A DNA stretch of 64,000 bases from Aidingimonas halophila. GTDB taxonomy: Bacteria; Pseudomonadota; Gammaproteobacteria; Pseudomonadales; Halomonadaceae. The notes beneath the pieces were generated by a model, which had not been told where the DNA came from, did not search any database, and saw nothing but the letters and a program-made list of their open reading frames with translations. Made by a program: the position numbers and the translations under genes. The stretch covers positions 248,001-312,000 of the forward strand of contig NZ_FNNI01000003.1 of assembly GCF_900106955.1 (NCBI RefSeq), given 5' to 3'. Positions 7,565-29,511 of this stretch are shown one piece after another (position 1 is the first letter of the stretch; each line of letters starts with the position of its first letter).

Positions 7565-8599
7565 TTACGGCATCAGCGCCGGCGCATAGAGTCCCTCCAT
7601 CTCGTCGAAGCCGAACATCAGGTTGAGATTCTGAATGGCCTGGCCTGAGGCGCCCTTGACCAGGTTGTCGATGACGGCCAATACGACGACGGTATCCCCA
7701 CCGCCAGGCCGATGCACGGCAATACGACACATGTCGGTGCCCTTGACGCTGCGGGTTTCCGGATGACTGCCCGGTGGCATGACATCGACGGCCGGTTCAT
7801 CCTTGAAACGTTGCTCGAACAAGGCCTGTAGATCGCCTGGTTCATGAGTCAGCCGACCGTATAGAGTGGCATGGATGCCCCGGATCATGGGGGTCAGATG
7901 AGGGACAAAGGTCAAGCCGACCGACTTGCCGGCAGCACGTGTCAGACCTTGGCGAATTTCCGGCAAATGGCGGTGACCGCTGGCACCGTAGGCTTTCATG
8001 GATTCGCTGGCCTCGGCCAGCAGCGAACCGATCTTGGCTCCCCGGCCGGCCCCGGTCACGCCGGACTTGCAGTCGGCGATGACATGATCGGTATCGATCA
8101 ATGCCCGTTCCAGCAATGGCAGAGCGGCAAGTTGCACGGCCGTGGGATAACATCCGGGAACAGCGATCAATCGCGCCTGGCAGATGGCGTCACGATTGAC
8201 TTCGGGGAGTCCGTATACTGCATCTTCGAGGAGATCCGGTGCCCCGTGCGACTGGCCGTACCAATGCGCCCATTCATCGGCATCGGCGAGACGAAAATCG
8301 GCGGATAAATCGATCACCCGGGCTCCACGGCCGATCAACTCACCGGCCATGGCATGCGCCACACCGTGTGGCGTGGCGAAGAACACGGCGTCACAATCGC
8401 CGAGCCGTTCGGGATCGGGTTCAGAAAAGGCCAGGCCGGGAAAATGACCGCGCAGATTGGGATAGAGTTCGTCAACCGCCAATCCCGCTTCGGAACGCGA
8501 GGTAATGGCGTCCACTTCGACATCGGGATGCTGCGATAACAACCGCAATAATTCGACTCCGGTATAGCCCGTGCCGCCGACGATACCCACCTTGATCAC
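7565..8599 (-). CDS. argC: N-acetyl-gamma-glutamyl-phosphate reductase ArgC
   Basis: NADPH-dependent reduction of N-acetylglutamyl phosphate, third step of arginine synthesis. The 344 residues have an N-terminal dinucleotide fold ([16 protein letters not shown]) and the catalytic cysteine in [11 protein letters not shown]. The C-terminal part carries HRHLPEI and [11 protein letters not shown]. Its ATG is at 8599, and the divergent ClC gene starts 116 bases away. No arginine-repressor box was recognised in the gap. Confidence 0.97.
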
Positions 8600-15615: not shown

Positions 15616-15631
15616 ATGGCACATAACCTGC
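15616..15631 (+). promoter_or_regulatory. Sigma-54 (-24/-12) promoter of fibre locus 1
   Basis: TGGCAC (15617-15622) and CTGC (15628-15631) give the GG and GC dinucleotides at exactly the required spacing of the TGGCACG-N4-TTGC consensus, with C for T at one -12 base. Predicted transcription would start near 15643, leaving a leader of about 135 bases before the glycine-rich gene. The two sigma-54 activator genes in the region support the call. Confidence 0.65.
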
Positions 15632-15777
15632 CCCATACCTTTCGACCATGAAGATGGCACTGACTACCAACGGGGATCGTGTCCCGTTGGCAAGCATGGT
15701 TTCCCGACATTGTCAGGGAACTGCCGTTTTATCGGTCGTAAGAATGAATCAATCATGCATGATAAGGGAGATTCACC

Positions 15778-16920
15778 ATGAAGAAGTACGTACTGGCGGG
15801 AACGACAATGTTGGCTTTGGTCATGGCGATTTCCACCGCCAGCGCCAACCCTTTCAACAAGCAGATCGGTACCGATGACAGTGGCGATCAATCGAATGAA
15901 CTGACATCGAATGCGACAGCCACAGGCGGAGACAGTGGTTATTCCAGCGGTGGTAATGGCGGCAACGGCAGCAGCGATGCGTCCGCGAAAGCCAAGAACT
16001 ACCTCGACGAAGTCGATGATGATGACAATTCCGGCACACAGGACGCCGCGAGTACGGCGGGCAGTGGAACCGGTACCGGTGGTGCGGGAGGGGCCGGCGG
16101 CGCGACCGGACGCGGTGGCGATGCCTGGGCCATGAGTGAATCCTACAACACCATTACTGAAGTTATTGCCTATCAGGATCTGGAGTCTCAAGTGACCGGC
16201 TCCAGGGTCTATATCAATGCCGGTGACGGTGCCACGGGCGGAGCAGGAGCCGATGGTGGCGATGCCGTTGCTGCTTCCGTGGGCGTGGGTGTTGGCGGTG
16301 AAGGCGGTACAGGCGAAGGCGGAGATGGTGGCAAGTCCTACGCCAAGGCAGGCGATGGCGATGATGGCGGTGATGGCGCTGGTCTGGGGCTAGGCCTTGG
16401 AGCCGGTGAAGGCGGAGACGCTGATGCCGAGAATGACGATACCTACGCCAGCAACGCAACTTTGGGTGGTCTGGCAGCCGTTGTCGAGGACGATGACAAC
16501 GATGCGACCGGTGGCGATGCGACCGGTGGTGATGCGACTGCCTCGTCAGCTGCCGCCGGCGGTACCGGTGGTGCCGGCAGTGGTACCGGAAGTGGTAGTG
16601 GAACGGGTACGGCCGGAGATGGAGGTAATGGTGGTAATGCAACGGCCGGCACGGGTGGAAGTGCCAATGGTAACGGTGGTGGCGGTGGTGGTGGTACCGG
16701 CACCAGCGGTGATGCCATGGCGGCTGCCGGTAATGGAGGTAACGGTGGCAATGGCGGAAATGGCGGGAATGCCACTCTGGCAACCGGGGCCGCGACGATG
16801 TCAGCCGGTGCCGGTACCTTCGGTGGTATTGCCAACATGAACCTGTCCACGGGGATCTACAACTCCCAGTTGGCTGCCAGCAACGTCGCTGCACATAGCA
16901 ACGTGAACATCGGCAACTGA
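15778..16920 (+). CDS. Secreted glycine-rich (GGX/GGN) repeat protein, putative fibre subunit
   Basis: I do not recognise this 380-residue protein as a named family. It has a clear signal peptide (cleavage expected after ASA at residue 23) and AAGGGAG before the ATG. Glycine-rich low-complexity blocks occupy about residues 48-65, 95-115, 148-220 and 243-335, with GGN, GGD and GGT triplets; acidic clusters (VDDDDN, VEDDDND) interrupt them. A non-repetitive island (WAMSESYNTITEVIAYQDL) lies at 117-146. The C-terminus (347-370: FGGIANMNLSTGIYNSQLAA) resembles the Fap-type repeat and is closest to the end of the next gene product. It contains no cysteine. It is the first gene behind a sigma-54 promoter and precedes a Fap-like small protein, a C39-like peptidase and a FapE-like protein. 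Structural subunit of a surface fibre is inferred from this context. Confidence 0.75.
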   Translation: MKKYVLAGTTMLALVMAISTASANPFNKQIGTDDSGDQSNELTSNATATGGDSGYSSGGNGGNGSSDASAKAKNYLDEVDDDDNSGTQDAASTAGSGTGTGGAGGAGGATGRGGDAWAMSESYNTITEVIAYQDLESQVTGSRVYINAGDGATGGAGADGGDAVAASVGVGVGGEGGTGEGGDGGKSYAKAGDGDDGGDGAGLGLGLGAGEGGDADAENDDTYASNATLGGLAAVVEDDDNDATGGDATGGDATASSAAAGGTGGAGSGTGSGSGTGTAGDGGNGGNATAGTGGSANGNGGGGGGGTGTSGDAMAAAGNGGNGGNGGNGGNATLATGAATMSAGAGTFGGIANMNLSTGIYNSQLAASNVAAHSNVNIGN

Positions 16921-16954
16921 TGGACGTTGGTCAATGGTGGTAACGCGGTAATAC

Positions 16955-16981
16955 GGGTTGGCGGCGTTCAGTCGCCAACCC
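16955..16981 (+). terminator. Hairpin after the glycine-rich gene, possible attenuator
   Basis: GGGTTGGCG (16955-16963) pairs with CGCCAACCC (16973-16981) across a 9-base loop, with no clear U-run. It separates the presumed abundant subunit from the downstream secretion genes and could lower their expression or stabilise the upstream message. Confidence 0.5.
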
Positions 16982-17026
16982 TTGTGCGATCGGTTTTCAC
17001 GCGTCGACGTTCAGGAGCAGGTCATC

Positions 17027-17401
17027 ATGAGACGATTCAGCCGTATCTCGCTGCAATTGATAGGAAGTATCGTGCTTTCCACCCTGGTTGCGGCTTCCAT
17101 GGCAGCGGAATCCGACTCATCCCGGGGGTTTGCCGCTGCCGAGAGACTGGAGGGCGCTGAACTCGATTCCTTACGTGGAAGAGAGGGATTCGCCGACATA
17201 ACGAATGTCCAGAGCATTCAGAATCTCGATGCCTCTGTCAGTCACAGCAGCTTCCATGCCGACACCATCCGGAGCGGTGCAATCACCATCGAAGCTCAGG
17301 CATTGGAAAATTTCGGGGGAATCGGATTGTTCAATCTGGTGACCGGGAATAACAATGCCGTGAACAGTGGTGTTGGCGTCAGTATCTACATGGCCGAGTA
17401 A
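17027..17401 (+). CDS. Small secreted Fap-like protein, putative minor subunit or nucleator
   Basis: A 124-residue protein with a signal peptide ending near residue 27 (AASMAA/ES). The ATG at 17027 is chosen for AGGAG upstream and the signal peptide that follows. Residues 45-52 (ELDSLRGR) resemble a double-glycine-type leader motif also seen in other proteins of the region. The C-terminal 97-120 (FGGIGLFNLVTGNNNAVNSG) is a single Fap-type motif (G..xxN..xG..N..xN) and aligns with the end of the glycine-rich protein. It sits between that gene and the C39-like peptidase. A FapB-like nucleating role is possible but inferred. Confidence 0.65.
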   Translation: MRRFSRISLQLIGSIVLSTLVAASMAAESDSSRGFAAAERLEGAELDSLRGREGFADITNVQSIQNLDASVSHSSFHADTIRSGAITIEAQALENFGGIGLFNLVTGNNNAVNSGVGVSIYMAE

Positions 17402-17407
17402 TAGACG

Positions 17408-18115
17408 ATGAAAAGGCTGATAACCGGTGCTGCGGCATCACTGCTTGCCATCACGATGCTGGTGGAAGGAACGCCGGCACAAGCCGGTCCAGTTAATATT
17501 GCCGGTTCATTCGGTTCGTTCAAGGTGCCCAGCAAGAGTCTGGTGGAAATGCGTTGGGATCGGGTCATTCCCCAGCAATACGACTATAGCTGTGGCTCGG
17601 CCGCCGTCGCTACCCTGCTGACCTATCACTATGATCGTCCCACCTCGGAAGCCGAGGTGTTCGACAGCATGTTCGCAAGTGGCGATCAGGAGAAGATCCA
17701 GCAGCATGGATTTTCCATGCTCGACATGAAGCGGTATCTGGATGAAGAGAACCTGGATTCGGATGGATTTCGTATCGAATTGGATGATTTCATCCGGGTC
17801 GGTGTTCCTGCCATCACGCTGATCAATACCGGTGGCTATAAGCACTTTGTCGTCATTAAAGGCATGGATGACGATCGTGTTCTGGTGGGGGATCCGGCGG
17901 TAGGTACGGTTGTCGTGCCGAAAGCCCATTTCCAAACATTGTGGGGCGGTACGGTGCTGGGAGCCAGGCGAGACATGGAAATTGCGCAACATAACTTCAA
18001 TCATGGCGATGATTGGCGTATACGTCCGGATTCCCCGCTGAAGCAAGGCATGAGGCGTTCGGGGATCGGGACCACGGTCCTCAACTTGCCCGGTCCCAAT
18101 GAAATGGGCAAATAG
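17408..18115 (+). CDS. Periplasmic C39-like cysteine peptidase, FapD type (locus 1)
   Basis: A 235-residue protein with a signal peptide (cleavage near PAQA at 26) and a stand-alone C39-type peptidase domain without ABC-transporter parts. The expected catalytic residues are C62 (YSCGSAAVATLL), H146 (GYKHFVVIKG) and D162 (VGDPAVG). FapD proteins of Pseudomonas have this composition and are needed for amyloid export. It starts 6 bases after the small subunit gene. Its second copy in this window is at 24383-25099, with the same C-H-D pattern but otherwise clearly diverged. Confidence 0.85.
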   Translation: MKRLITGAAASLLAITMLVEGTPAQAGPVNIAGSFGSFKVPSKSLVEMRWDRVIPQQYDYSCGSAAVATLLTYHYDRPTSEAEVFDSMFASGDQEKIQQHGFSMLDMKRYLDEENLDSDGFRIELDDFIRVGVPAITLINTGGYKHFVVIKGMDDDRVLVGDPAVGTVVVPKAHFQTLWGGTVLGARRDMEIAQHNFNHGDDWRIRPDSPLKQGMRRSGIGTTVLNLPGPNEMGK

Positions 18116-18140
18116 GGGTCTCTATGGGAGACAAGTGACA

Positions 18141-18824
18141 ATGAACGATTCATCGAATGTCAGAAACGCAGAGATGGGTCATAAATCGAGGTCTCGCGCC
18201 CGTTTGGCTTGTTGGCCGCTGGCCGGATTGTGCCTGATCGTTTCTTCCATGACACCAGCCGGTTTCCTGGAAGAAGTGGTGGACAACGGTGACTATTATT
18301 CGCCGAGCGTGACCGCTTTCTCCGAACCCTTGGCGTTTGCGCGTCAATCGGTCATTGACGAATCGCAGCTCGAGGAGATGCGGGGAGGTTTCAGTATCGC
18401 CGGCCTGGATATCAATTTCGGTGCCACGCTGAAGACACAAATCGACAATATCCACTATGAAACGATCTTGAGCATTTCCCAGACCGGGACACGGGTCATC
18501 TCGGAAACCTTGCGTGATATGGGCTTGGCTTCCAACCAGCAGTTGACACAGGTAGGGCGCAATGGCCAGCCGCTGACGGATACACTGCCTGCCAACATCT
18601 CGCTGCCGGGGATGAAGGAGTTCAGTGGTGTCACCCTCAATGATCCGAAAGGGTTTTCTGCGGCACTGCATAGCGTGACTCGCGATGCAATCATGAGTTC
18701 GGTCGTCAGTCATGCCTCCAATCGGGACATCCGTCAGAACGTGAATCTCGATATCCAACTCAATAACGTGAAATCCATTCGGGAAGCCCAGCAGCGTTCG
18801 GTGATCATGAACTCGCTGTTCTGA
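18141..18824 (+). CDS. FapE-like secreted protein (locus 1)
   Basis: A 227-residue protein. I chose the ATG at 18141, preceded by GGGAG; a longer frame from 18099 overlaps the peptidase gene. A hydrophobic stretch at 22-40 looks like a signal peptide, although SSMTPAG is an imperfect cleavage site. Residues 76-84 (QLEEMRGGF) resemble a double-glycine leader and align with the corresponding part of the FapE-like product at 25153-25941. The C-terminal third (NVNLDIQLNNVKSIREAQQ) is helical or amphipathic and has no Fap repeat. Its position after the peptidase matches fapE. Fibre-associated or export-accessory function is inferred. Confidence 0.65.
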   Translation: MNDSSNVRNAEMGHKSRSRARLACWPLAGLCLIVSSMTPAGFLEEVVDNGDYYSPSVTAFSEPLAFARQSVIDESQLEEMRGGFSIAGLDINFGATLKTQIDNIHYETILSISQTGTRVISETLRDMGLASNQQLTQVGRNGQPLTDTLPANISLPGMKEFSGVTLNDPKGFSAALHSVTRDAIMSSVVSHASNRDIRQNVNLDIQLNNVKSIREAQQRSVIMNSLF

Positions 18825-18848
18825 ACGTCAGTGGCCACAAGCAAGAAA

Positions 18849-18872
18849 CAGGGCAAGCGGAAGCTTGCCCTG
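18849..18872. terminator. Hairpin between convergent fapE-like and fapF-like genes
   Basis: CAGGGCAAGC (18849-18858) and GCTTGCCCTG (18863-18872) form a perfect 10-bp stem with a GGAA loop. It lies in the 71-base gap between convergent genes, so it can serve both directions, although the following bases are not a strong U-run. Confidence 0.7.
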
Positions 18873-18895
18873 ATGGTTAATAGCGGGATTTACCC

Positions 18896-19969
18896 TCAAA
18901 AGACATTCATTCCAAAGGGAATCCTGAGAGTCAACAAGGTATCGGGCGCATCGTCCGTGACCCCCAATTCCAGCCCCAGATTGACCGAGGTATCCGGTGA
19001 CAGTTGATAGGACCAACCCAAGAGCAAAGACCCGATGTTCAGTGATGTGGATCGAGTACTGACACTATCCCCGTCGTCATCGGTAAAACGGGTTGTAGTC
19101 TTGTCGATGAAATCGTTCTTGTAGCCGAGCGTGAACGAGGATCGTTCGTTGATGGAATAGGCCATACCGAAACTGACACGTACGGCATCGCCTGGATCGA
19201 CTTCATCGACGAAGACATCACCGACAGACTCATCGATATCATCCTCCATGTTGTAGAGATAACCGATGTTGGCAAAATAAACGGCGGGATCGGAAGGAAA
19301 CAGCATGGTCAGGCTCGGTTCCAGGGAGTGAAAACCGGATCCCGTCGCCAATTCCTGCTCGATACCGTCACTGTCACGTCGGATATCGAAAGGGCCCTCG
19401 CCGGTCGTGGATTTGTAGCGCAGATTGCCGATGAAGTAGGGCCAGCCATCCTGCCCCCGGTTCAATTGATAGTGGGCGGCGACTTCGATATCGCCCAAGC
19501 CGTTACCGCTCAAGCCTCTGTCCGTACTGAAACCCTGGACATCGGGGACGGTGGCGTAGAGTGTGTCGTCACGGTAGACATACGGGACTTTCAGCTCCAG
19601 TTCCAGGCGATCGGTCACACCCAATCGGCCGGTTACAGCAGCCGTCCAGGTGTCGCGATCCGCATCTTCGGCCTCGAAGACACCGATCAGGAAGGTACTG
19701 AGTATCTCGACGCCACGAAAGGTGAGTCGATTGACGCTTGCATGGGAATATTGCAATTCCGGTTCAATGACCAGGCGTCCCTTGGGTGTCAGTACGCCGC
19801 CGATATCGGGAATCGCCTGGATCTCGGGTTGCTCCTGTTCAATATCGGGCGCCTGACCAACCGGTTGTTGGCCGACCGCCTCCTGATTGTTGATATCTTG
19901 AGCCGATACATGACTGGCGACAAACAGGAAAGCCAGGCCTGCTACGCGCGTTAGGGTTATTGGTATCAT
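18896..19969 (-). CDS. Outer-membrane beta-barrel, FapF-like pore (locus 1)
   Basis: A 357-residue protein with a signal peptide (cleavage near VSAQ at 23-24) and GGGAG before the ATG. A glutamine/glutamate/proline-rich linker (residues 25-50) precedes a run of amphipathic beta strands ending in an aromatic residue (RIPFGMNVF). It is clearly related to the product at 26229-27341: both contain GVT[DE]RLE.EL..P..YR and DPA..FAN.GY.YN. FapF is the trimeric pore that exports Fap subunits. The gene runs against the rest of locus 1 and lies directly downstream of a sigma-54 activator gene, so pore and subunits must use different promoters. Confidence 0.78.
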   Translation of the reverse strand: MIPITLTRVAGLAFLFVASHVSAQDINNQEAVGQQPVGQAPDIEQEQPEIQAIPDIGGVLTPKGRLVIEPELQYSHASVNRLTFRGVEILSTFLIGVFEAEDADRDTWTAAVTGRLGVTDRLELELKVPYVYRDDTLYATVPDVQGFSTDRGLSGNGLGDIEVAAHYQLNRGQDGWPYFIGNLRYKSTTGEGPFDIRRDSDGIEQELATGSGFHSLEPSLTMLFPSDPAVYFANIGYLYNMEDDIDESVGDVFVDEVDPGDAVRVSFGMAYSINERSSFTLGYKNDFIDKTTTRFTDDDGDSVSTRSTSLNIGSLLLGWSYQLSPDTSVNLGLELGVTDDAPDTLLTLRIPFGMNVF

Positions 19970-20059
19970 ATCGTTATCTCCCGGAGATCCCTCGATACTT
20001 GTTTAATGTCATCGTTTATCACCAGATGGAAGTGGGATAACCGATAACAGTCTGTTTTT

Positions 20060-21448
20060 CTAGAATATTTTCGAGCCATTCACTGGTTTTCTGCATAAAT
20101 CAACACGGTGCTTATCCAGCAACCTGTAGAGAGTGACTCGAGAAACATTCAGCTCCTTTGCCGTTGCTGATATATTACTTTTATTTCGTTCCAACGATTT
20201 TTTTATGACCTCGATTTCAGCTTGGTCCCGTACAGCATCTAGCGTCGTATTGGGAATTTCGTCGTTTATATTTTCATATGTCAGTCCTAAATCTTCAGGT
20301 TGAATGAGTTCACCTTCACACATCACCAGAGCACGACGGACTCGATTGATAAGTTCGCGGATATTTCCAGGCCAGTCATGCTGTAAAATAGAGAGTAAGG
20401 CTTCACTACTGAATCCTTTGACACATGGCGCCGCCTCTTTGGAGAAATCATTAAAAAAAGTGGTTACCAGAGTTTCAATATCGTCTTTTCTCTCTCTTAA
20501 AGGAGGTATATCAAGCTGAATGACATTGAGACGATGATAAAGATCTTCTCGGAATTTCTTGTCGTATATGGCATCCATCATATCGATGTGAGTGGCTGAA
20601 ATAATTCTGACATCGACTCTTATTTCATTGACACCACCCAGACGGCAAATTTTTTGATCTTCCAGAAAGCGGAGTAAGTTGACTTGCAGGTTATGGGGAA
20701 GGTCACCGATTTCATCGAGAAACAAGGTTCCTTCATGTGCTGACTCGATACGTCCAGGCTTACTGGTGTGTGCGTCGGTGAAGGCACCCTTTTCATGCCC
20801 GAACAGTTCGTCCTGTATCAAATCCGAAGGAAGCGAACCGCAGTTGATGGCGATGAAAGGCCCATGACGTCGCGCTGACATGTCATGGATAGTCCGTGCT
20901 ATCAGCTCCTTTCCGGTACCTGACTCGCCGAGCAGCATGATCGGGGCCTGAATCATCGCCACCTTACGTATACTGCGTACCAGGTGTTGCATTCTGGGTA
21001 CCAGACTGTTGATCAGCAGTCTGTCAGAGGGTAAGCATTTCAGTGGCAAGTCCGATGTTTGAGGGTTTTGTACATATTTTATCGTGGCAGCATGCCTGAG
21101 TAGTATATGCAACTTATCAGATGAACCTGGCAATAAATGATATGCATAGAACAGTGATCTTATCGCCAATCGATTTATCTTTTTATCAAGATACTCTTGA
21201 TTGGCTAATGCAATCCATTCGATATGGCTTTTATCAATCAGTGTTTCAAGAAAAGGATGAAATGATGGACGAAGTGATGTTAAATCAACGATGCCAATAT
21301 CAAATTTATCAGGTTGAATGTTTTCAGAAGCTGGCACTAAATGACGGTGATGTATTACATCAAATGTATTCAGGATATTTTTACTCATTACAAGCCGATT
21401 CGACTCTGCGCTATCGCCAATATAAAGAAGCCTCTTCAATGCATACAT
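20060..21448 (-). CDS. VpsR-like sigma-54 activator with GAFTDA variant (locus 1)
   Basis: A 462-residue transcription factor. The N-terminal domain (1-140) is receiver-like without an obvious phospho-acceptor pocket and carries LFYAYHLLPGS, shared with the second activator and reminiscent of VpsR. The AAA+ domain has Walker A GESGTGKE (174-181) and Walker [10 protein letters not shown]. The sigma-54 contact loop reads GAFTDA (221-226) instead of GAFTGA. A Fis-type helix-turn-helix closes the protein ([20 protein letters not shown]). The gene is noticeably AT-richer than its surroundings, suggesting transfer. Direct control of locus 1 is inferred from position and from the sigma-54 promoter at 15616. 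Confidence 0.85.
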   Translation of the reverse strand: MYALKRLLYIGDSAESNRLVMSKNILNTFDVIHHRHLVPASENIQPDKFDIGIVDLTSLRPSFHPFLETLIDKSHIEWIALANQEYLDKKINRLAIRSLFYAYHLLPGSSDKLHILLRHAATIKYVQNPQTSDLPLKCLPSDRLLINSLVPRMQHLVRSIRKVAMIQAPIMLLGESGTGKELIARTIHDMSARRHGPFIAINCGSLPSDLIQDELFGHEKGAFTDAHTSKPGRIESAHEGTLFLDEIGDLPHNLQVNLLRFLEDQKICRLGGVNEIRVDVRIISATHIDMMDAIYDKKFREDLYHRLNVIQLDIPPLRERKDDIETLVTTFFNDFSKEAAPCVKGFSSEALLSILQHDWPGNIRELINRVRRALVMCEGELIQPEDLGLTYENINDEIPNTTLDAVRDQAEIEVIKKSLERNKSNISATAKELNVSRVTLYRLLDKHRVDLCRKPVNGSKIF

Positions 21449-22005: not shown

Positions 22006-22022
22006 TTGGCACAGAGATTGCT
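22006..22022 (+). promoter_or_regulatory. Sigma-54 (-24/-12) promoter of the fap operon (locus 2)
   Basis: TTGGCAC-AGAGA-TTGCT matches the consensus YTGGCACGrNNNTTGCW with one exception (A for G after TGGCAC), and the GG/GC spacing is exact. Transcription would begin about 22033. This excludes the upstream GTG at 22032 and supports the ATG at 22056 as the first start of the operon. Confidence 0.88.
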
Positions 22023-22055
22023 CAGTATTATGTGACGACACTGAGGATAGAGACC

Positions 22056-22562
22056 ATGAACGGCGTGACATACTCCACATCGGTTTTACCACCCAGGCCA
22101 ATCGCAACGCGCTGCCGGTATGTCGCGACGGTATTGATCCTGGCGTGTGGACCGGCTGTCAGCTGGGCAGGGGAGCTGCAGGGAGATAACGACACCATAG
22201 CCGTTGCCTATACCACGGTCTCTCATCAGTCATCGTCATATAGCAATAACGACCACCATGGTTTGGCCGATCGTGTCGCTTTCGATAGTGGCAATGACTT
22301 CGGGGGTAACAGCGGGGAAGAACGCTTGCCTGACACATTCAGGTCGCTGGAGATGAATACAAGCATTGATAGCGGCACCTTGAGCCAGGTTCGCGGCCGT
22401 TACACCCCATCTTCCGAACTCGAAAGTGGCTCGGCTGACGGTGTCATTCTCTGGGATGAAGGTCATACCGGACAACAGGGTGGATCGAGCAAGGGGTCCA
22501 ATCACTCCATGGGTCAGGGAAATATCCAGAAAAACTCCATTACGACCCAGAGTCAAAGGTGA
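22056..22562 (+). CDS. fapA: FapA-like secreted protein (locus 2)
   Basis: A 168-residue protein, first gene of the operon. The ATG at 22056 follows GAGGA and lies downstream of the predicted transcription start. A signal peptide ends near SWAG (residue 39). The mature part is Ser/Gly/Asn-rich and low in hydrophobics, with TLSQVRGRY at 108-116 and a C-terminal GQGNIQKNSITTQ that is part of a Fap motif. The identification as FapA rests on position (first of six), size and secretion signal more than on similarity I can see. Confidence 0.6.
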   Translation: MNGVTYSTSVLPPRPIATRCRYVATVLILACGPAVSWAGELQGDNDTIAVAYTTVSHQSSSYSNNDHHGLADRVAFDSGNDFGGNSGEERLPDTFRSLEMNTSIDSGTLSQVRGRYTPSSELESGSADGVILWDEGHTGQQGGSSKGSNHSMGQGNIQKNSITTQSQR

Positions 22563-22567
22563 ACGTC

Positions 22568-23245
22568 ATGGCCGGAAACACGAGCTTTGATCGCGAAACA
22601 TCGAAAAAAACTGGCCGTTTGCGGAGCATGTTACTGGCGATGTCACCGCTGGTGTTCATGACGTTCGTGATGAATGAAGCCGTTGGGGACGACGGGGTTT
22701 TCAGGCATCTACCTCAGGCGAACAGCAGTGTCATCAGTGGTGATGCGTTGAGCGGTGTGCGGGGCGTAGTCGCCACCAATAGCGCAGCGGGAACCAACAA
22801 TCTTCAGAGTAATTCGGGTGCGATTGCCATCGGTGATACCGCTTCCGTGAATAACCATGTCATTCAGCAATCCACACTGGACAAAGGCTCCGTTCCTGGC
22901 CGAGACAACGTCTCGATCGAGGGTCGAGCATTCAGCCACGCCAAAGGCTGGATTTCGACCAACCAGGCGGCGGGGCGAGCGAATGTGCAGGGCAATGCAG
23001 TCAGCATGGCTCTGGGCATCAAGGGCAGTGCACTGAGCGAGAGCAGTATGGGTCAGGTGCTGTCCGATCAGCAGGGACTGACGGCCGATCTGGCTAGTTC
23101 CGATGCCTCGAAGCGCAAGGTCACGATCGACAAGACGGCCTTCTCGGGGGCAGCAGGAATTATCCAGACGAACCAGTCAGCCGGAAACGGCAATACCACC
23201 AGTAACAGCTTCAGTCTCCGTGTGGGGCCTGGGGGCGGTGAGTAG
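22568..23245 (+). CDS. fapB: Fap-repeat protein, FapB-like (locus 2)
   Basis: A 225-residue protein with three Fap-type repeats at about 60-89, 121-150 and 191-220, for example GWISTNQAAGRANVQGNAVS and GIIQTNQSAGNGNTTSNSFS. The ATG at 22568 follows AAAGGTGA and lies just after the fapA stop, so translation is probably coupled. A hydrophobic segment at 21-37 acts as signal; about 20 polar residues precede it, which is longer than usual. In Pseudomonas FapB is the minor, nucleating amyloid subunit. The end is PGGGE. Confidence 0.75.
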   Translation: MAGNTSFDRETSKKTGRLRSMLLAMSPLVFMTFVMNEAVGDDGVFRHLPQANSSVISGDALSGVRGVVATNSAAGTNNLQSNSGAIAIGDTASVNNHVIQQSTLDKGSVPGRDNVSIEGRAFSHAKGWISTNQAAGRANVQGNAVSMALGIKGSALSESSMGQVLSDQQGLTADLASSDASKRKVTIDKTAFSGAAGIIQTNQSAGNGNTTSNSFSLRVGPGGGE

Positions 23246-23294
23246 TCTGCCGGAATAAACAACGTTGAACCAAGGTTCATTCAGGAGAAAGATC

Positions 23295-24305
23295 ATGAAA
23301 ACATTGACGAAAACTCCGCTGGCACTGGCTATCGCTACCTTGATGATGGCTCCCTATGCGATGGCGGATGAGTATACCGGTGGTTTCGATACCGATAGCG
23401 AGATCGACTCTGAGTTCGAAAATGAAGTCGAAGTCGAAATCGAGCATGATGCCGAGACCAATAAGGATATCAAGGTCTGGGGCGGCGCCCTGATACTGGA
23501 TCCCAACTATGCGGGTGCCACGGTCGATAGCAAGCAATTGTCGGAAGACAATTTCGTGCTCAACGATCTGGTGGAAAACGATGCGCGAGTAGGCGGTGAT
23601 GCCGGTCGAAATGCCAGTGGCAATATCGGCATCAACAGTGCGGCCGGCGATAACAACCAACAGGCCAATGATGCGGCCTTGGCGGCATCCGACGCGAATA
23701 CGGTCTTCGCACAGTCGGCCGCATTCTCGGTACAGTCCTCTGACGACAACACGGTGGTCAACAAGGGCACCGATAACGATGCCGGCGCAGGTGGCAATGC
23801 GCTGCGCGGCGCCACAGGCAATATCGGTCTCAATAGTGCGGCCGGTGTCGGTAATGCCCAGCAGAACAGCCTGTCGGCGTCCGTCAATACCAGCAATGGA
23901 TCAGCCGATGCCACCTCGGCCGGCGTGCAATCGAACAGCGATAATGCCAGCTTCAATGGAACTGGGAAGACCAAGACAACAAAAACGTCCCAGGTTAATG
24001 GTGTAGCTGCGGTTTCGGGGGCATCTGCCGGTGCTGAAGCAGGCGCTAGCGCAGGCACTTACTACAAACACGCTAGTGCAGGTGCCGGTGCGGAAGCCAG
24101 CGCCGGTGCGCTTGCGGCTGCCTACTCCGGCAGTGAAACCGTGACGACGACCAAGAACCAGATGCAGACCAATGACGCCAACCTGAGCGGTAATGCACTC
24201 CGCGATGCGTCAGGCAATCTCGGGGTGAACGTTGCTGCGGGTAACAACAATCAGCAGCGTAACTCGCTCTCCATTGCCGCAGGGACGGGTGGTGGATCTG
24301 AGTAA
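23295..24305 (+). CDS. fapC: Major Fap amyloid subunit, FapC-like (locus 2)
   Basis: A 336-residue protein starting at the ATG at 23295 (AGGAGA upstream), with a signal peptide cleaved near AMA/DE at 24. Three Fap repeats at about 104-132, 167-195 and 299-327 share GN[IL]G[IL]N.AAG..N.QQ, as in Pseudomonas FapC. The second linker (about 200-295) includes an Ala/Gly/Ser-rich stretch with imperfect GASAGAEAG-type copies. The N-terminal mature part is highly acidic (residues 32-55). There is no cysteine. A strong hairpin follows the gene, consistent with the subunit being made in excess. Identification rests on repeats, operon order and the FapD/FapF partners. Confidence 0.85.
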   Translation: MKTLTKTPLALAIATLMMAPYAMADEYTGGFDTDSEIDSEFENEVEVEIEHDAETNKDIKVWGGALILDPNYAGATVDSKQLSEDNFVLNDLVENDARVGGDAGRNASGNIGINSAAGDNNQQANDAALAASDANTVFAQSAAFSVQSSDDNTVVNKGTDNDAGAGGNALRGATGNIGLNSAAGVGNAQQNSLSASVNTSNGSADATSAGVQSNSDNASFNGTGKTKTTKTSQVNGVAAVSGASAGAEAGASAGTYYKHASAGAGAEASAGALAAAYSGSETVTTTKNQMQTNDANLSGNALRDASGNLGVNVAAGNNNQQRNSLSIAAGTGGGSE

Positions 24306-24326
24306 CCACGGCTAGTCAGTGATGTG

Positions 24327-24352
24327 AACCGGCCCCGGATGGGGCCGGTTTT
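24327..24352 (+). terminator. Terminator-like hairpin between fapC and fapD
   Basis: AACCGGCCCC (24327-24336) pairs perfectly with GGGGCCGGTT (24341-24350) around GGAT, followed by TT. It looks like a partial terminator that would lower fapDEF relative to fapABC. It corresponds in position to the hairpin after the glycine-rich gene of locus 1. Confidence 0.75.
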
Positions 24353-24382
24353 CCACTCCAACGAGCCTGTGGGAGAGCACTG

Positions 24383-25099
24383 ATGTTTCCTTCGATAATG
24401 ACTCGCATGTTGTCTGTTCTGGTTGGCGCTGGCTGCCTGCTGGCAGCGGGAATATCCGATGTCCAGGCGGCCAACGTGCGTCTGGGCAATGTGGTATCGG
24501 GTACCGTGATCAACAAGGATGTGCAGTCGATGCGTGAGCGGAAGTTCGACACCCTGGTGGAACAGGAAACGGATTTTTCCTGCGGTGCCGCCTCGTTGGC
24601 AACGTTGCTGCGCTATGCCTACAACCAGCCGGAGATCACGGAAGAGGACGTGCTCGAAGGCATGCTCGAGGTCGCCGATCCTGACGTGGTGATGGAGCGC
24701 GGCTTTTCCCTGCTCGACCTCAAGAATTATGTCGATCGCCTGGGGTATCGCGGTCGAGGTTATGAAGTCGACACCGAGACACTGGACGAGGTGGCGATTC
24801 CCGTCATCGTGCTGCTCGATATCGATGGCTACAAGCACTTCGTTGTCATGAAAAAGGCCAGTGATGATCGGGTCTATGTCGGTGATCCAGCGTTGGGTAA
24901 CCGGGTCATGGAGCGGGATGAATTTCTCGCCGCCTGGAACAACATCATCTTCGCCGTGGTAGGCGAAGGGTTCGATACGCAAACCCCATTACTCGATCCC
25001 GATCAACCGCTGACAGCGCGGCGGCTGACCGATGTGTTTGCACCGGTACCCGAACAGGATCTTCTCGATTTCGGATTTCGCCATGCTGACTTCTTCTGA
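24383..25099 (+). CDS. fapD: Periplasmic C39-like cysteine peptidase FapD (locus 2)
   Basis: A 238-residue protein with a signal peptide (DVQA/AN near 30) and a single C39-type domain. Catalytic residues are C67 (DFSCGAASLATLL), H152 (GYKHFVVMKK) and D168 (VGDPALG). GGGAGAG precedes the ATG. It lacks the ABC parts of bacteriocin exporters and agrees with FapD. It shares FSLLDLKNYVDRLGYRG / FSMLDMKRYLDEEN and other blocks with the locus 1 copy. Confidence 0.87.
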   Translation: MFPSIMTRMLSVLVGAGCLLAAGISDVQAANVRLGNVVSGTVINKDVQSMRERKFDTLVEQETDFSCGAASLATLLRYAYNQPEITEEDVLEGMLEVADPDVVMERGFSLLDLKNYVDRLGYRGRGYEVDTETLDEVAIPVIVLLDIDGYKHFVVMKKASDDRVYVGDPALGNRVMERDEFLAAWNNIIFAVVGEGFDTQTPLLDPDQPLTARRLTDVFAPVPEQDLLDFGFRHADFF

Positions 25100-25152
25100 G
25101 CGAGATGCCTACGGATAACGGCATCAGCAAGGGCGCATTCAAGGGGGTAAAT

Positions 25153-25941
25153 ATGATCAGGCACTGGGTGGATAAACGTTGGTACGGTGCACTGGGAGTC
25201 GTCGTTGTATTAGGGGGCATTGGACAGCCAACAGAAGGACGGGCCGCGACGACCGATGTATCGGCGTTGGCCGATTCCCGTCAACTCAGCGATGACGAAT
25301 TGGCCGGTATGCGCGGCCGTTTCATCGATGGCAAAAGTGTCATGTTCTTCGGCGTCAGTATGGAGAGTGAATTTCGCACCGCTGGCGGTGATAGTCTGAA
25401 AGCGGGCGCCAATCTCCATGCCGATATGATCAAAGGCAAAGCCAGTTTCAAACCGCATATTACAGCCACGTCCATCGATAGCGACAAGATGCGGTCGAAA
25501 GGGAATGATAATGCGAATCTGAGCTATAACGACCTCGGTAGTGGCAATGCGCGTGGGGTCGTACAAACCATACAGGCGGCTGGTGATGGCAACGCTGCTG
25601 CCAACGAATTCGAACTCGATATCCAGACATTTGCGAATGCGTCGCGTGGCGCACGGGTTTCCGGCAATGGTGAAACGTCCTTGAATACCGGTACGGCCAA
25701 TCTGAGCGTTCGACAGAATGGACGCGGTATGGAAGTCGGTATCGACGTGCCGGGCCAGGGCCGAATCAAGCAGCAGCTCCGATCGGGGCAGGGGTTGCAT
25801 CAGTCGGTGCAACTCAACAGCGATCTGCAGCGGGTGCGAAACGTGACACGGCTACAGGTCGGGGTGAAACAGGCACTGGGTGACGCGTCAGGTTCCCAGC
25901 TCAAGCGTGCACTGGATTCGGCACGTGGCCTGCGGCGTTAA
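25153..25941 (+). CDS. fapE: FapE-like secreted protein (locus 2)
   Basis: A 262-residue protein. The ATG at 25153, preceded by AAGGGGGT, is preferred to a frame from 25105 that has no signal before it. A signal peptide ends around residue 31. Residues 46-57 (SDDELAGMRGRF) form a double-glycine-like motif closely matching that of the locus 1 paralogue. One Fap-type motif lies at 133-153 (RGVVQTIQAAGDGNAAAN). The C-terminal part is rich in Gln, Arg and hydrophobic heptad-like positions. FapE of Pseudomonas is exported and found with the fibre. Confidence 0.72.
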   Translation: MIRHWVDKRWYGALGVVVVLGGIGQPTEGRAATTDVSALADSRQLSDDELAGMRGRFIDGKSVMFFGVSMESEFRTAGGDSLKAGANLHADMIKGKASFKPHITATSIDSDKMRSKGNDNANLSYNDLGSGNARGVVQTIQAAGDGNAAANEFELDIQTFANASRGARVSGNGETSLNTGTANLSVRQNGRGMEVGIDVPGQGRIKQQLRSGQGLHQSVQLNSDLQRVRNVTRLQVGVKQALGDASGSQLKRALDSARGLRR

Positions 25942-26147
25942 CCGGACCGGCAATGGTTTCGCAATCAGGTCGCTATCTATTTCAGGGTGGTTGTCTCCGT
26001 AGGATACGCGAGATGGTCACCCTTTCTGCATTGTTGATGTTCCGTGATATTGACGTCAACGCGCCGAGATTTCCGTCGACTACACTGCCTAGTGCATCAG
26101 ATGTTCATGAACAACAAAACGGTAATGCAGTGATCGGGAACGTGTCG

Positions 26148-26168
26148 GAATCCTGCTCGACAGGATTC
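26148..26168 (+). other. Hairpin in the fapE-fapF gap
   Basis: GAATCCTG (26148-26155) and CAGGATTC (26161-26168) form a perfect 8-bp stem with a 5-base loop and no U-run. The 287-base gap (25942-26228) that contains it otherwise holds an 86-codon frame (25953-26213) with no recognisable feature, so a separate promoter for fapF is possible but not identified. Confidence 0.45.
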
Positions 26169-26228
26169 AGTCGCAGCCCATCGAATACCATCAAAAACCC
26201 AGGGAATCGATAGTCAGGGGAGTGGATA

Positions 26229-27341
26229 ATGCGAATGACCAAGGTTGCCGATCCTCAACTGAGTCTCAAGCCGTATATCACCGCTGTCACTTTGTGTGTG
26301 GGTAGTGTGTGGGCCACATCGGCCTGGGCTCAAGAGGATGTGTCGCCGGGGGGCGATGGAGACGGGGAGGTTGTCAGGGAGGCCGGCCCCACGCAAAGCG
26401 TCCAGAATGTGCTCCGCGAGGAACATGCGCTGTTCTCGGATCGACTGACGATCGAACCCGGGATCAGTTATGCCTATTCGGATCGTAGCCAGTTGGCTCT
26501 GAGTGGTTTCCTGGCGCTGGATGCCATCTTTCTCGGTGAAATCAATGTCGATACCGTCTCGAGCCATATCACCACGTTCGATCTCAACTTTCGTTACGGG
26601 GTGACGGAGCGTCTGGAATTCGAACTCAATTTCCCGTTCCTGTATCGCAGCAGTACCTATGAGAGCACCGGAGGGGGAGGTGCGGCCGAAGATGACCCCA
26701 ATGTCGAGGATTCCGTGAGCGAGGCCGGATTGGGGGATATCAGTGCCTCACTCAATTACCGATTGTTGAATGAAACCGCGCAACGCCCCGATCTGGTCTG
26801 GAATGTTGGTGTCCGTGCGCCGACAGGCAACGATCCCTTCGGTATCCCGACACGTCGAGTGGAAGGCAGTGAAGGTAATGTGGAGATTCCGACCGAACTG
26901 CCGACGGGTAACGGCGTCTGGGCCGTTTCCACGGGGTTCTCGGTGCTCAAGACGGTCGATCCCGCCATTCTCTTCGCCAATGCCGGCTACACCTACAATT
27001 TCGAGGAGAGCTTCGGCGATATCGATGCCGCGGAAGGCAATCAGCCAGGAGATGTCAAGCTGGGCGACTCCTTCAATCTGGGATTCGGTACGGCATTTGC
27101 CTTGAATGAACGCTTGAGCTTGTCGATGTCCTACGCGCACCAGCACAGTTTCAAATCCGAGACGACCCAGAACGGGGTTACCGAAGAGGTCGTGGGCAGT
27201 GATGCCAATGTAGGGACCATGAATTTCGGCGCTACCTATGCGCTGAGTGACGATACGTCGCTGGTTACCAACGTGGCGGTTGGTCTGACCGACGATGCCT
27301 CGGATCTCACGGTCTCGTTCCGGATGCCGTTCCAGTTCTAG
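26229..27341 (+). CDS. fapF: Outer-membrane beta-barrel FapF (locus 2)
   Basis: A 370-residue protein with a signal peptide ending at SAWAQ (about residue 35) and GGGGAG before the ATG (an in-frame ATG two codons later is an alternative). A short glycine/acid-rich N-terminal linker is followed by repeated amphipathic beta strands and a terminal phenylalanine (FRMPFQF), as expected for an outer-membrane barrel. It shares long blocks with the locus 1 barrel. FapF forms the trimeric export pore for Fap subunits. The long N-terminal coiled coil described for Pseudomonas FapF is not evident here. Confidence 0.8.
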   Translation: MRMTKVADPQLSLKPYITAVTLCVGSVWATSAWAQEDVSPGGDGDGEVVREAGPTQSVQNVLREEHALFSDRLTIEPGISYAYSDRSQLALSGFLALDAIFLGEINVDTVSSHITTFDLNFRYGVTERLEFELNFPFLYRSSTYESTGGGGAAEDDPNVEDSVSEAGLGDISASLNYRLLNETAQRPDLVWNVGVRAPTGNDPFGIPTRRVEGSEGNVEIPTELPTGNGVWAVSTGFSVLKTVDPAILFANAGYTYNFEESFGDIDAAEGNQPGDVKLGDSFNLGFGTAFALNERLSLSMSYAHQHSFKSETTQNGVTEEVVGSDANVGTMNFGATYALSDDTSLVTNVAVGLTDDASDLTVSFRMPFQF

Positions 27342-27387: not shown

Positions 27388-28749
27388 TCAATGATGCAAC
27401 TCGGCGGATTCGGGGCGGACGATGTCATGTTTATCGATCAATCGATAGAGTGTCACCCGTGACACGCCGAGTTCCTTGGCGGCATTCTGGATCTTGTACT
27501 TGTTGCGGGCCAGGGCGGCCACCAGGGCATCGCGTTCGGCTGCGTCACGGGCTTGTTCCAGTGTCAATACTTCACGGCTGTTGTGTCGCCGTTCGAGTCC
27601 CATGTCAGCGGGACGAATGAGGCGTCGTTCGCACATCACCATGGCGCGGCGGACCCGGTTGATCAGTTCCCGTATGTTGCCTGGCCAGTCATATTGCCGC
27701 ATCAAGGCCAGCGTTTCCTGGCTGAATCCCCGCAATTGAGCCGGTTTCTCATTGGCGAATTTGTCGAAGAAGAAACGCGCCAGCACCTCGATGTCTTCCT
27801 GCCGTTCGCGAAGCGGCGGCACATTGATCTGCAGGACATTGAGGCGGTGATAGAGATCTTCTCGAAAGCGCCCTTCACGCACGGCAGCCTCAAGATCAAT
27901 GTGTGTCGCAGCCAGGACTCGCACATCAACGTTGATCTCCTTGAGTCCCCCGACACGCTGAATCTGGTGATCCTGGAGAAAGCGCAGGAGATTGACCTGC
28001 ATATCCAGTGGCAAGTCACCGATCTCGTCGAGGAACAGGGTACCGCCGGATGCGGCTTCGATACGGCCAATCTTGCGTTGTGTCGCACCGGTGAAGGCGC
28101 CCTTCTCATGGCCGAACAATTCCGACTGAATCAGACTGGCCGGTAGGGCGCCGCAGTTGACGGCCACGAATGGTCCTTCGGCCCGTGTCGATCGCTCGTG
28201 GACAGCATGTGCAGCCAGTTCCTTACCCGTGCCGGATTCACCACTGATGAAGACCGGTGCATCGACGGCTGCTACACGACGAATCATGTTGAACAGCTTA
28301 TGCATTTCCGGGGTGGTGCCCACCATTTCGTACTCGCTGGATCCCAACTGACAGTCCCGACCGGGAAGTGGCGCCAATCTGGCCATGGCCAGGGCATGGG
28401 TCAACAGACAATCGATCTCTGCGACATCGATCGGTAAGGTGTGGTAGGCGTAGAACAGTTGGCTCAGGATGCGGCAGCTGACGTGATCGTCGAGTGCTGC
28501 ATTGTCGACCAGGGCGACCCACTCCATGGGATGGGACATGACCAGCTTTTCGGCCGCTTTCTGGTGATGCTTGTCAACATCGACATACATCAGACCGACA
28601 TCGCAAGGGTGCGAATGAATCAACTCATCGGCGTGAAACGTGTCGGGCGCGCATTGGATGGACCATCCGCGCTGGGCCATATCCGCGATGACTGGCGGCG
28701 TGTGATGATGATCGGCACCGACAAACAGCAAACGCTTGGTGACTTCCAT
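27388..28749 (-). CDS. VpsR-like sigma-54-dependent activator (locus 2)
   Basis: A 453-residue regulator homologous to the product at 20060-21448. The N-terminal receiver-like domain carries [11 protein letters not shown] (99-107). Walker A is GESGTGKE (170-177), the sigma-54 loop is the canonical GAFTGA (217-222), and the Fis-type helix-turn-helix is [19 protein letters not shown]. VpsR of Vibrio, a matrix-gene activator responding to c-di-GMP, is the nearest relative I can name; ligand binding here is not shown. The gene is downstream of, and on the same strand as, the csgD-like gene (60-base gap). It probably activates the promoter at 22006. Confidence 0.88.
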
Positions 28750-28809: not shown

Positions 28810-29511
28810 TCAATGGCGTAACGAGGAGCGATGCGGGTTGTCTTCGGTTCTCATACTGGCCAGGTTGATCGGCATGGCACCCAGGTTTTGCCGCGCCCAG
28901 TTCATGGCCTGGATACGGTTATGCACCTTGATCTTGCGAAAGACGTTATAGAGATGCGACTTTACCGTGTGCTCGCTGACGAAGAGCCGTTCGGCGATCT
29001 CCGAGTTCGAGGCGCCTGATCCTAGAAGACCAATGATCTCGAGTTCACGGTGCGTCAACCCACAGATGGGGCGGTAGGCATTGCGTTGCTGACGCCGATA
29101 GAAATCGATCAGGCGGGTCATCAATGCGCGTGATATCCACAGGTCGCCTTCCAGAAGTTTGCGGATGCCCTTGCAGATCAGCATCAGGCTGTCACTGCGA
29201 TAGAAGACGCCCTGAAGGTGGAACTTGGCCAGTACATCAGCGGCGTGGTCCTCATCACGCAGGTTGAAGGCCGCCAGTAATATGTCGGACCCTTCCAACG
29301 TCTGGTAGTACCATTGTTGAAGTGTTTCGTCATCGACGTGGTCGGCATCCATCAGTATCAGCGTGGTCTCATTTGCTTGCAGGCTACAGCTCTCGGTGAG
29401 TCCCTTGACGGCAACGGGGCACTGCAGTTGTTGATGGATATAATCGATGAACAATTGTGATTGTGGGTTCGTATCGGTGACTAGAAGCACCGATCCCTTG
29501 GCTTGATCCAT
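28810..29511 (-). CDS. CsgD-like LuxR-family biofilm regulator
   Basis: A 233-residue regulator with a receiver-like N-terminal domain lacking a clear phosphorylation pocket and a LuxR helix-turn-helix at about 150-212. The match to E. coli CsgD is strong in two blocks: QGVFYRSDS near 100, and LTHRELEIIGLLGSGASNSE with SEHTVKSHLYNVF. CsgD normally activates curli and cellulose genes. No csgA/csgB homologue is in this window, and the gene instead neighbours a Fap-type operon. GGAGCAGGG precedes the ATG. Activation of the downstream sigma-54 activator or of either fibre locus is inferred. Confidence 0.88.
   Translation of the reverse strand: MDQAKGSVLLVTDTNPQSQLFIDYIHQQLQCPVAVKGLTESCSLQANETTLILMDADHVDDETLQQWYYQTLEGSDILLAAFNLRDEDHAADVLAKFHLQGVFYRSDSLMLICKGIRKLLEGDLWISRALMTRLIDFYRRQQRNAYRPICGLTHRELEIIGLLGSGASNSEIAERLFVSEHTVKSHLYNVFRKIKVHNRIQAMNWARQNLGAMPINLASMRTEDNPHRSSLRH

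Follow-up and report, generated by a model that had tools for sequence, protein, structure and literature searches.

A conserved gene set, related to yet distinct from the Pseudomonas amyloid system, probably secretes a glycine-rich matrix protein

The 64,000-nucleotide stretch of the Aidingimonas halophila genome analyzed here (contig NZ_FNNI01000003.1, positions 248,001 to 312,000; hereafter the window, in whose own coordinates positions are given) contains a locus, from 15617 to 21448, that encodes five proteins with a Sec signal and a VpsR-type sigma-54 activator behind a sigma-54 promoter. The gene set is related to the Fap amyloid system of Pseudomonas, yet distinct from it, and it probably secretes a glycine-rich matrix protein. 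Four genes (Gly-rich, small, C39 and E) run in the same direction on the forward strand, followed by the barrel and activator genes, which converge on them from the reverse strand. By inspection, all five exported products carry a Sec signal peptide at the N-terminus, and the open reading frames (ORFs) of an earlier sequence-only reading were confirmed in position and size. The features of the locus are the following:

15617..15631, forward strand: sigma-54 (-24/-12) promoter element TGGCACATAACCTGC for the gly-small-C39-E genes
15778..16920, forward: Gly-rich, low-complexity secreted protein, candidate main exported subunit (380 amino acids, Sec signal peptide)
16114..16218, forward: conserved central block of the Gly-rich protein, GGDAWAMSESYNT..(S)VI..Q.L.S.V.G (alignment of 40 orthologues)
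16819..16917, forward: conserved C-terminal block of the Gly-rich protein, FGGIANMNLSTGIYNSQLAASNVAAHSNVNIGN, in the position that a Fap-like repeat occupies in other lineages
17027..17401, forward: small secreted protein (124 amino acids) with one C-terminal FapB-like repeat (approximately 17279-17389)
17162..17182, forward: leader-like motif of the small protein, (L)EGAE-LDSLRGR, proposed C39 recognition or cleavage site
17408..18115, forward: periplasmic cysteine peptidase of the C39 family, from a clade that is sister to FapD (Pfam PF03412, 1.5e-20)
18141..18824, forward: E protein (227 amino acids), a FapE-like N-terminal leader followed by a different predicted beta domain (approximately residues 88-227)
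18369..18389, forward: leader-like motif of the E protein, (I)DESQ-LEEMRGG followed by F
18849..18872, reverse: terminator-like stem-loop in the gap where the E and barrel genes converge (consensus match, no more than shuffles of the region would give)
18896..19969, reverse: FapF-like outer-membrane barrel (357 amino acids; NCBIfam FapF, 1.7e-43)
20060..21448, reverse: sigma-54-dependent activator with a VpsR N-terminal domain (PF00158, 2.9e-65; PF20161, 9.8e-08)

The peptidase and the barrel place the locus next to Fap and, at the same time, outside it. In the C39 peptidase, residues Gln56, Cys62, His146 and Asp162 are invariant among 21 orthologues, and its profile matches bacteriocin double-glycine peptidases. 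The protein scores 130.9 bits against the FapD equivalog, for which the cut-off is 330, and in the C39 tree a window-type clade of 83 rows (support 91/95) stands apart from a FapD clade of 10 rows (100/99); the window peptidase is therefore not a FapD orthologue. A third set, adjoining DUF6160 proteins in several families of the order, branches apart in the same tree. Moreover, when random samples were searched with the C39 profile, full-length window-type matches scored above 200 bits, while FapD and other C39 proteins remained below 160 bits. As for the barrel, it is a true FapF homologue, matching the crystallised FapF (PDB 5O65-5O68) over approximately 300 residues (E-value 3.5e-41; hhalign probability, P, of 100), but it lacks much of the N-terminal region that precedes the barrel in Pseudomonas FapF, and it reaches 149 bits against the FapF equivalog, with a cut-off of 700. 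The barrel tree separates window-type proteins (Shimodaira-Hasegawa-like approximate likelihood ratio test, SH-aLRT, 86) from FapF (SH-aLRT 97), in the same partition as the C39 tree.

We then considered the candidate subunit and its linkage to this machinery. The mature Gly-rich protein holds 104 glycines in 357 residues, with 34 GG dipeptides, and had no match in the Pfam or NCBIfam searches that would place it in a known, unrelated family. Its ratio of nonsynonymous to synonymous substitution rates (dN/dS), calculated against a congeneric genome, is 0.04, meaning that the gene is under strong purifying selection; together with its presence in 49 family genomes, this value indicates that the ORF is a real gene. 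In a survey of 201 sampled Halomonadaceae genomes, in which C39 orthologues were taken below 1e-70 and the Gly-rich protein was sought by profile, both genes were found in the same 49 genomes and neither was found alone. Named relatives of the window's genome are Litchfieldella and Halomonas. The order gly-small-C39-E, with the convergent barrel and sigma-54 activator, was the same in 40/40 inspected loci, also where no fap operon lies nearby. These results bear out the proposal of a Fap-related secretion locus with a Gly-rich candidate subunit of its own, other than FapC.

The small protein may provide a further tie to Fap: its repeat aligns with FapB with a P of 11 % for the halomonad set and 75 % for a broad set. 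Neither it nor the Gly-rich protein matched the FapB/C families of NCBIfam. In beta- and gammaproteobacteria other than halomonads, a Fap-like repeat at the C-terminus is common to the large and the small protein (P 96 %, E-value 2.7e-9). The C-terminal conserved block of the halomonad Gly-rich protein reads FGGIANMNLSTGIYNSQLAATNVAAHSNV.IGN in the 40-orthologue alignment. A degenerate Fap motif had been claimed for this C-terminus; the block is indeed conserved, yet it gave an hhalign P of at most 1.6 % (0.5-0.9 % against FapB/FapC), and the assignment was rejected as unproven.

A motif in the helper proteins suggests how the peptidase could act. Leaders of the double-glycine type, the substrates of C39 peptidases, follow the pattern LSxxELxxIxGG. 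The E protein of the locus aligns with FapE in the N-terminal leader region alone (P 90-96 % over 39-65 columns), with the resemblance centred on [LM]xx[LM]RG[G/R/K][F/Y]; the earlier description of the protein as FapE-like thus holds for the leader, but not for the rest, which differs from FapE, and no NCBIfam FapE match was obtained. Written out in full, the motif reads [I/L/V]-x3-E-[LM]-x2-[LM]-R-[GA]-[G/R/K]. Of the 77 E proteins, 76 carry it, where shuffling predicts 8.7, and so do 71 of the 98 small proteins, where 5.3 are predicted, as against just 2 of the 102 C39 proteins; the Gly-rich protein lacks it. When the ORF located 3' of the C39 gene was chosen by position alone, 51/59 carried the motif, compared to 53/1452 similar-sized ORFs of those loci. 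Eight FapE proteins were recovered, their genomes being Pseudomonas-like, Halomonas-like and others, and each of the eight has the motif as well (e.g., ELKDQELAQLRGKY and QLSDDELAGMRGRF). Counting from the presumed cut, position -8 is mostly Glu and -2 is Gly or Ala; among E proteins, positions -12, -7 and -4 are hydrophobic in 83, 100 and 79 %, respectively, with Gly or Ala at -2 and -1 in all, and position -12 played no part in the motif search. In addition, the predicted E structure has a short helix (residues 74-80) and a folded domain from approximately residue 88, on either side of the proposed cut; a fold search with this model gave no PDB match below an E-value of 0.01 and none with a useful template modeling (TM) score. 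Overall, the motif fits the double-glycine leader type cut by C39 peptidases, and this leader tag on the helper proteins may be the cutting site of the system's own C39 protease. Cleavage by C39 peptidases has been reported after GG or GA (PMC10233263). In Fap, Rouse et al. showed that the catalytic Cys of FapD is required for FapC secretion and that FapE is the sole Fap protein seen completely N-terminally processed, and they stated that they saw no canonical C39 site (PMC5557850); the target of FapD has been reported as unclear (PMC5557850, PMC6173800).

The promoter element is conserved as well. An equivalent sigma-54 element lies upstream of 36/40 halomonad orthologues, with 1.8 expected from shuffles, and in 25/43 loci of other lineages, with 2.35 expected. 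Sigma-54 activators, counted by BLAST, are present in 40/40 halomonad loci and in 38 of 62 other loci, several of which are on short contigs, and the VpsR-domain activator at 20060-21448 probably regulates the locus.

Altogether, we propose, with a probability of about 0.6, that the locus is a self-contained, sigma-54/VpsR-controlled cassette and a sister class of the Fap exporter, in which leaders clipped by the C39 peptidase license export of the Gly-rich protein through the barrel to form a surface fibre or matrix. All five products would reach the periplasm by Sec, where the peptidase would clip the double-glycine-type leader from the E and small FapB-like proteins; this clipping would open or prime the FapF-like outer-membrane barrel, which would then export the large Gly-rich protein, itself without a leader. 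The fibre or matrix would assemble from the Gly-rich protein once it is extracellular, with the one-repeat small protein serving as nucleator or minor subunit. The sequences themselves show the gene set with its order and linkage, the selection, the homologies, the motif and the promoter; the cleavage, the export route, the polymer and the control by the neighbouring activator are what we infer. Several observations weigh against this proposal. With regard to co-expression, the barrel gene is on the opposite strand, and a sigma-54 element of its own was found upstream in just 3/40 loci. Small proteins fit the leader less well, position -4 being often Ala and -1 often Arg, and the choice of distant E proteins by hidden Markov models was partly biased by the motif. 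Rather than a cleavage site, the motif could be a signal for export that the barrel recognises. Furthermore, the window's Gly-rich protein has no recognisable Fap repeat in hhalign profile comparison, and its AlphaFold model was uninformative (mean predicted local distance difference test score, pLDDT, of 33).

Two alternatives deserve the most attention, and we regard both as unlikely, to an equal degree. According to the first, the small and E proteins are the sole products that the barrel and the peptidase export, and they make up a short fibre or adhesin, while the Gly-rich protein stays in the periplasm or follows another route, e.g., in a hydration or ice/salt-protective role. The presence of the leader motif on the E and small proteins only would fit this explanation, as would the lack of FapC-like repeats in the Gly-rich protein, and an acidic protein rich in Gly and Asp could serve halophilic hosts. 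However, the Gly-rich gene was never found without the machinery, and in beta- and gammaproteobacteria the corresponding large protein and the small protein have a C-terminal repeat in common, a relation also seen between FapB and FapC. In the second, the LxxLRGG motif is not a C39 cleavage site but an export signal recognised by the FapF-like barrel, in the way that the N-terminus of CsgA is recognised by CsgG. In agreement, the motif sits in exported or presumed exported proteins and is kept in both Fap and the window-type class. Nevertheless, the motif agrees with double-glycine leaders in its hydrophobic spacing (-12/-7/-4), in the Glu at -8 and in having small residues at -2/-1; moreover, the peptidase encoded beside the LxxLRGG proteins has intact catalytic residues, and FapE of Pseudomonas is N-terminally processed (PMC5557850).

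A third explanation arises from the surroundings of the locus. A complete classical fapABCDEF operon, which the sequence-only reading did not include, adjoins it approximately 2 kb downstream (22032-27341, forward strand), with NCBIfam matches for FapB (3.6e-27), FapC (1.3e-44), FapE (2.9e-29) and FapF (1.8e-109) and its own perfect sigma-54 element at 22007. As this operon lies just downstream, the Gly-rich locus is a second, parallel system. With the same kinds of genes as fap 2 kb away, in the window and in one sister genome, the locus could be thought an ordinary degenerate duplicate of the operon, but we consider this very improbable: in the trees, the peptidase and the barrel fall into supported clades of their own, apart from FapD and FapF and drawing members from several classes, most carriers of the locus have no fap in the vicinity, and strong purifying selection on the Gly-rich gene speaks against degeneration. 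Least probable of all is that the barrel is an uptake channel for hydrophobic compounds (Phenol_MetA_deg/COG4313 type) whose linkage to secreted proteins is incidental, since its match to Pfam PF13557 (2.2e-05) is far weaker than that to FapF, and its linkage with C39 and secreted proteins is conserved.

Within the neighbouring operon, FapE carries LSDDELAGMRGR followed by F, and the FapA-like protein (22032-22562) carries LSQVRGR followed by Y. In a halomonad fap locus (L098), the FapA-like protein (8001-8444, reverse strand) carries LASIRGR followed by F; because of this motif of its own, FapA could be another substrate of FapD at that locus. A further sigma-54 activator of the VpsR type (27388-28749, reverse) and a VpsT-like LuxR regulator (28810-29511, reverse) flank the two systems, which suggests matrix control of the cyclic di-GMP type.

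At the class level, the Gly-rich protein profile matched the window's own genome alone beyond the family, as low complexity defeats the profile; distant loci were therefore sought with the C39 profile in species genomes, and the spread is a lower bound. Among the matches listed, window-type peptidase and barrel clades occur in alpha-, beta-, gamma- and some deltaproteobacteria, including Kiloniellaceae, Parvularculaceae, Ectothiorhodospiraceae, Methylobacter, Vibrionaceae, Lysobacteraceae, many Burkholderiales, Geobacteraceae and Desulfocapsaceae. Almost all distant loci have the barrel, and most have the small and E proteins; where a large upstream protein was found, it is of low complexity with a conserved C-terminus, Gly-rich (20-36 %) in halomonads, Kiloniellaceae, Burkholderiales and Lysobacter and rich in Ser, Asn or Asp in others. 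The suggestion of a possible new class can thus be kept as a sister class of Fap, but not as a one-off, given that the class is widespread and Gly-richness is just one version of it. Some loci depart from the common layout: one (L088, genome G260) has a tandem duplication with two identical C39 and identical small proteins approximately 2.9 kb apart, and two alphaproteobacterial loci (L129 and L130) have two tandem Gly-rich proteins, with the barrel approximately 6.8 kb upstream on the other strand. A match in an Anaerolineae metagenome-assembled genome (L145) may be mis-binned, because a Chromatiales match comes from a different contig of that sample.

Compared with known systems, the locus is closest to Fap, with which it shares a FapF-family barrel, a FapD-like periplasmic C39 peptidase, Sec-dependent products and the RG[G/R/K]-type leader of FapE, and probably also a FapB-like protein with one repeat. 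It seems to work like Fap, yet it falls outside the FapC, FapD and FapA families: FapC, with its GN.G.N..AG repeats, is replaced by the Gly-rich protein, the peptidase and the barrel belong to clades apart from FapD and FapF, and only the Gly-rich and small genes, neither with a FapA match, lie between the promoter and the C39 gene, a spacing that is the same in 40 loci. In addition, the E protein is unlike FapE after the leader, and the barrel gene is convergent with the operon. In the Fil "putative pilus" (FilB C39, FilC barrel) and the DUF6160-C39-barrel loci of Pseudomonas and relatives, a C39 gene likewise adjoins a FapF-related barrel gene, and a secreted substrate has a double-glycine-like motif (LSGITGQ); these loci differ in their DUF6160 substrate family, in extra FadL-like and other genes and in a C39 of the third group. 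The window locus had no DUF6160 match, and its proteins score 121.6 bits against FilB (vs 475) and 88.1 against FilC (vs 630). Two loci of the survey (L092, 10070-12652; L094, 8189-12496) belong to this third C39-barrel class, with DUF6160 proteins carrying LSGITGQ and LSNTTGQ, respectively, and resemble Fil. With bacteriocin double-glycine leaders and the C39 peptidases of their PCAT exporters, the window-type proteins share the C39 fold and the catalytic residues and, in the proposed substrates, hydrophobic positions -12/-7/-4, a Glu at -8 and a small residue at both -2 and -1. They differ in that the window peptidase is a free periplasmic protein and the leader comes after a Sec signal, with Arg at position -3 and, in some cases, Arg or Lys at -1. 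Finally, curli (csg, type VIII secretion) follows an analogous logic, combining an unfolded low-complexity subunit, a nucleator-like partner and a dedicated outer-membrane pore; no CsgG, CsgE, CsgF or CsgA/B family was among the Pfam/NCBIfam matches, and a C39 peptidase is present instead. No description of a Gly-rich/C39/FapF system was found in the open-access literature searched, which leaves out most subscription journals. A 2013 study noted that FapD and FapF belong to larger protein families, and a 2018 review reported fapD-fapF pairs in five further phyla; the passages concerned do not describe the subunits.

In a wider sense, Fap may belong, as a single branch, to a large superfamily of protein exporters that use a FapF-type barrel and are licensed by a C39 peptidase, a view to which we give even odds. 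The window branch, the most widely spread of those sampled, would export low-complexity matrix proteins (Gly- or Ser/Asn/Asp-rich) capped by no more than one Fap-like repeat. All members of the superfamily, Fap among them, would use the periplasmic double-glycine-type leader LxxxELxxLRG[G/R/K] on FapE-like and nucleator-like proteins as a protease switch for secretion. FapD is essential for Fap secretion, and the motif that FapE has in common with the sister class, where the small and E proteins carry it, represents a testable candidate for its target site. Moreover, widespread secretion loci are now defined behind the "non-specific" FapD/FapF homologues mentioned in those passages of the 2013 and 2018 papers, and the Gly-rich protein would be a new type of matrix protein, with consistent sigma-54/VpsR control.

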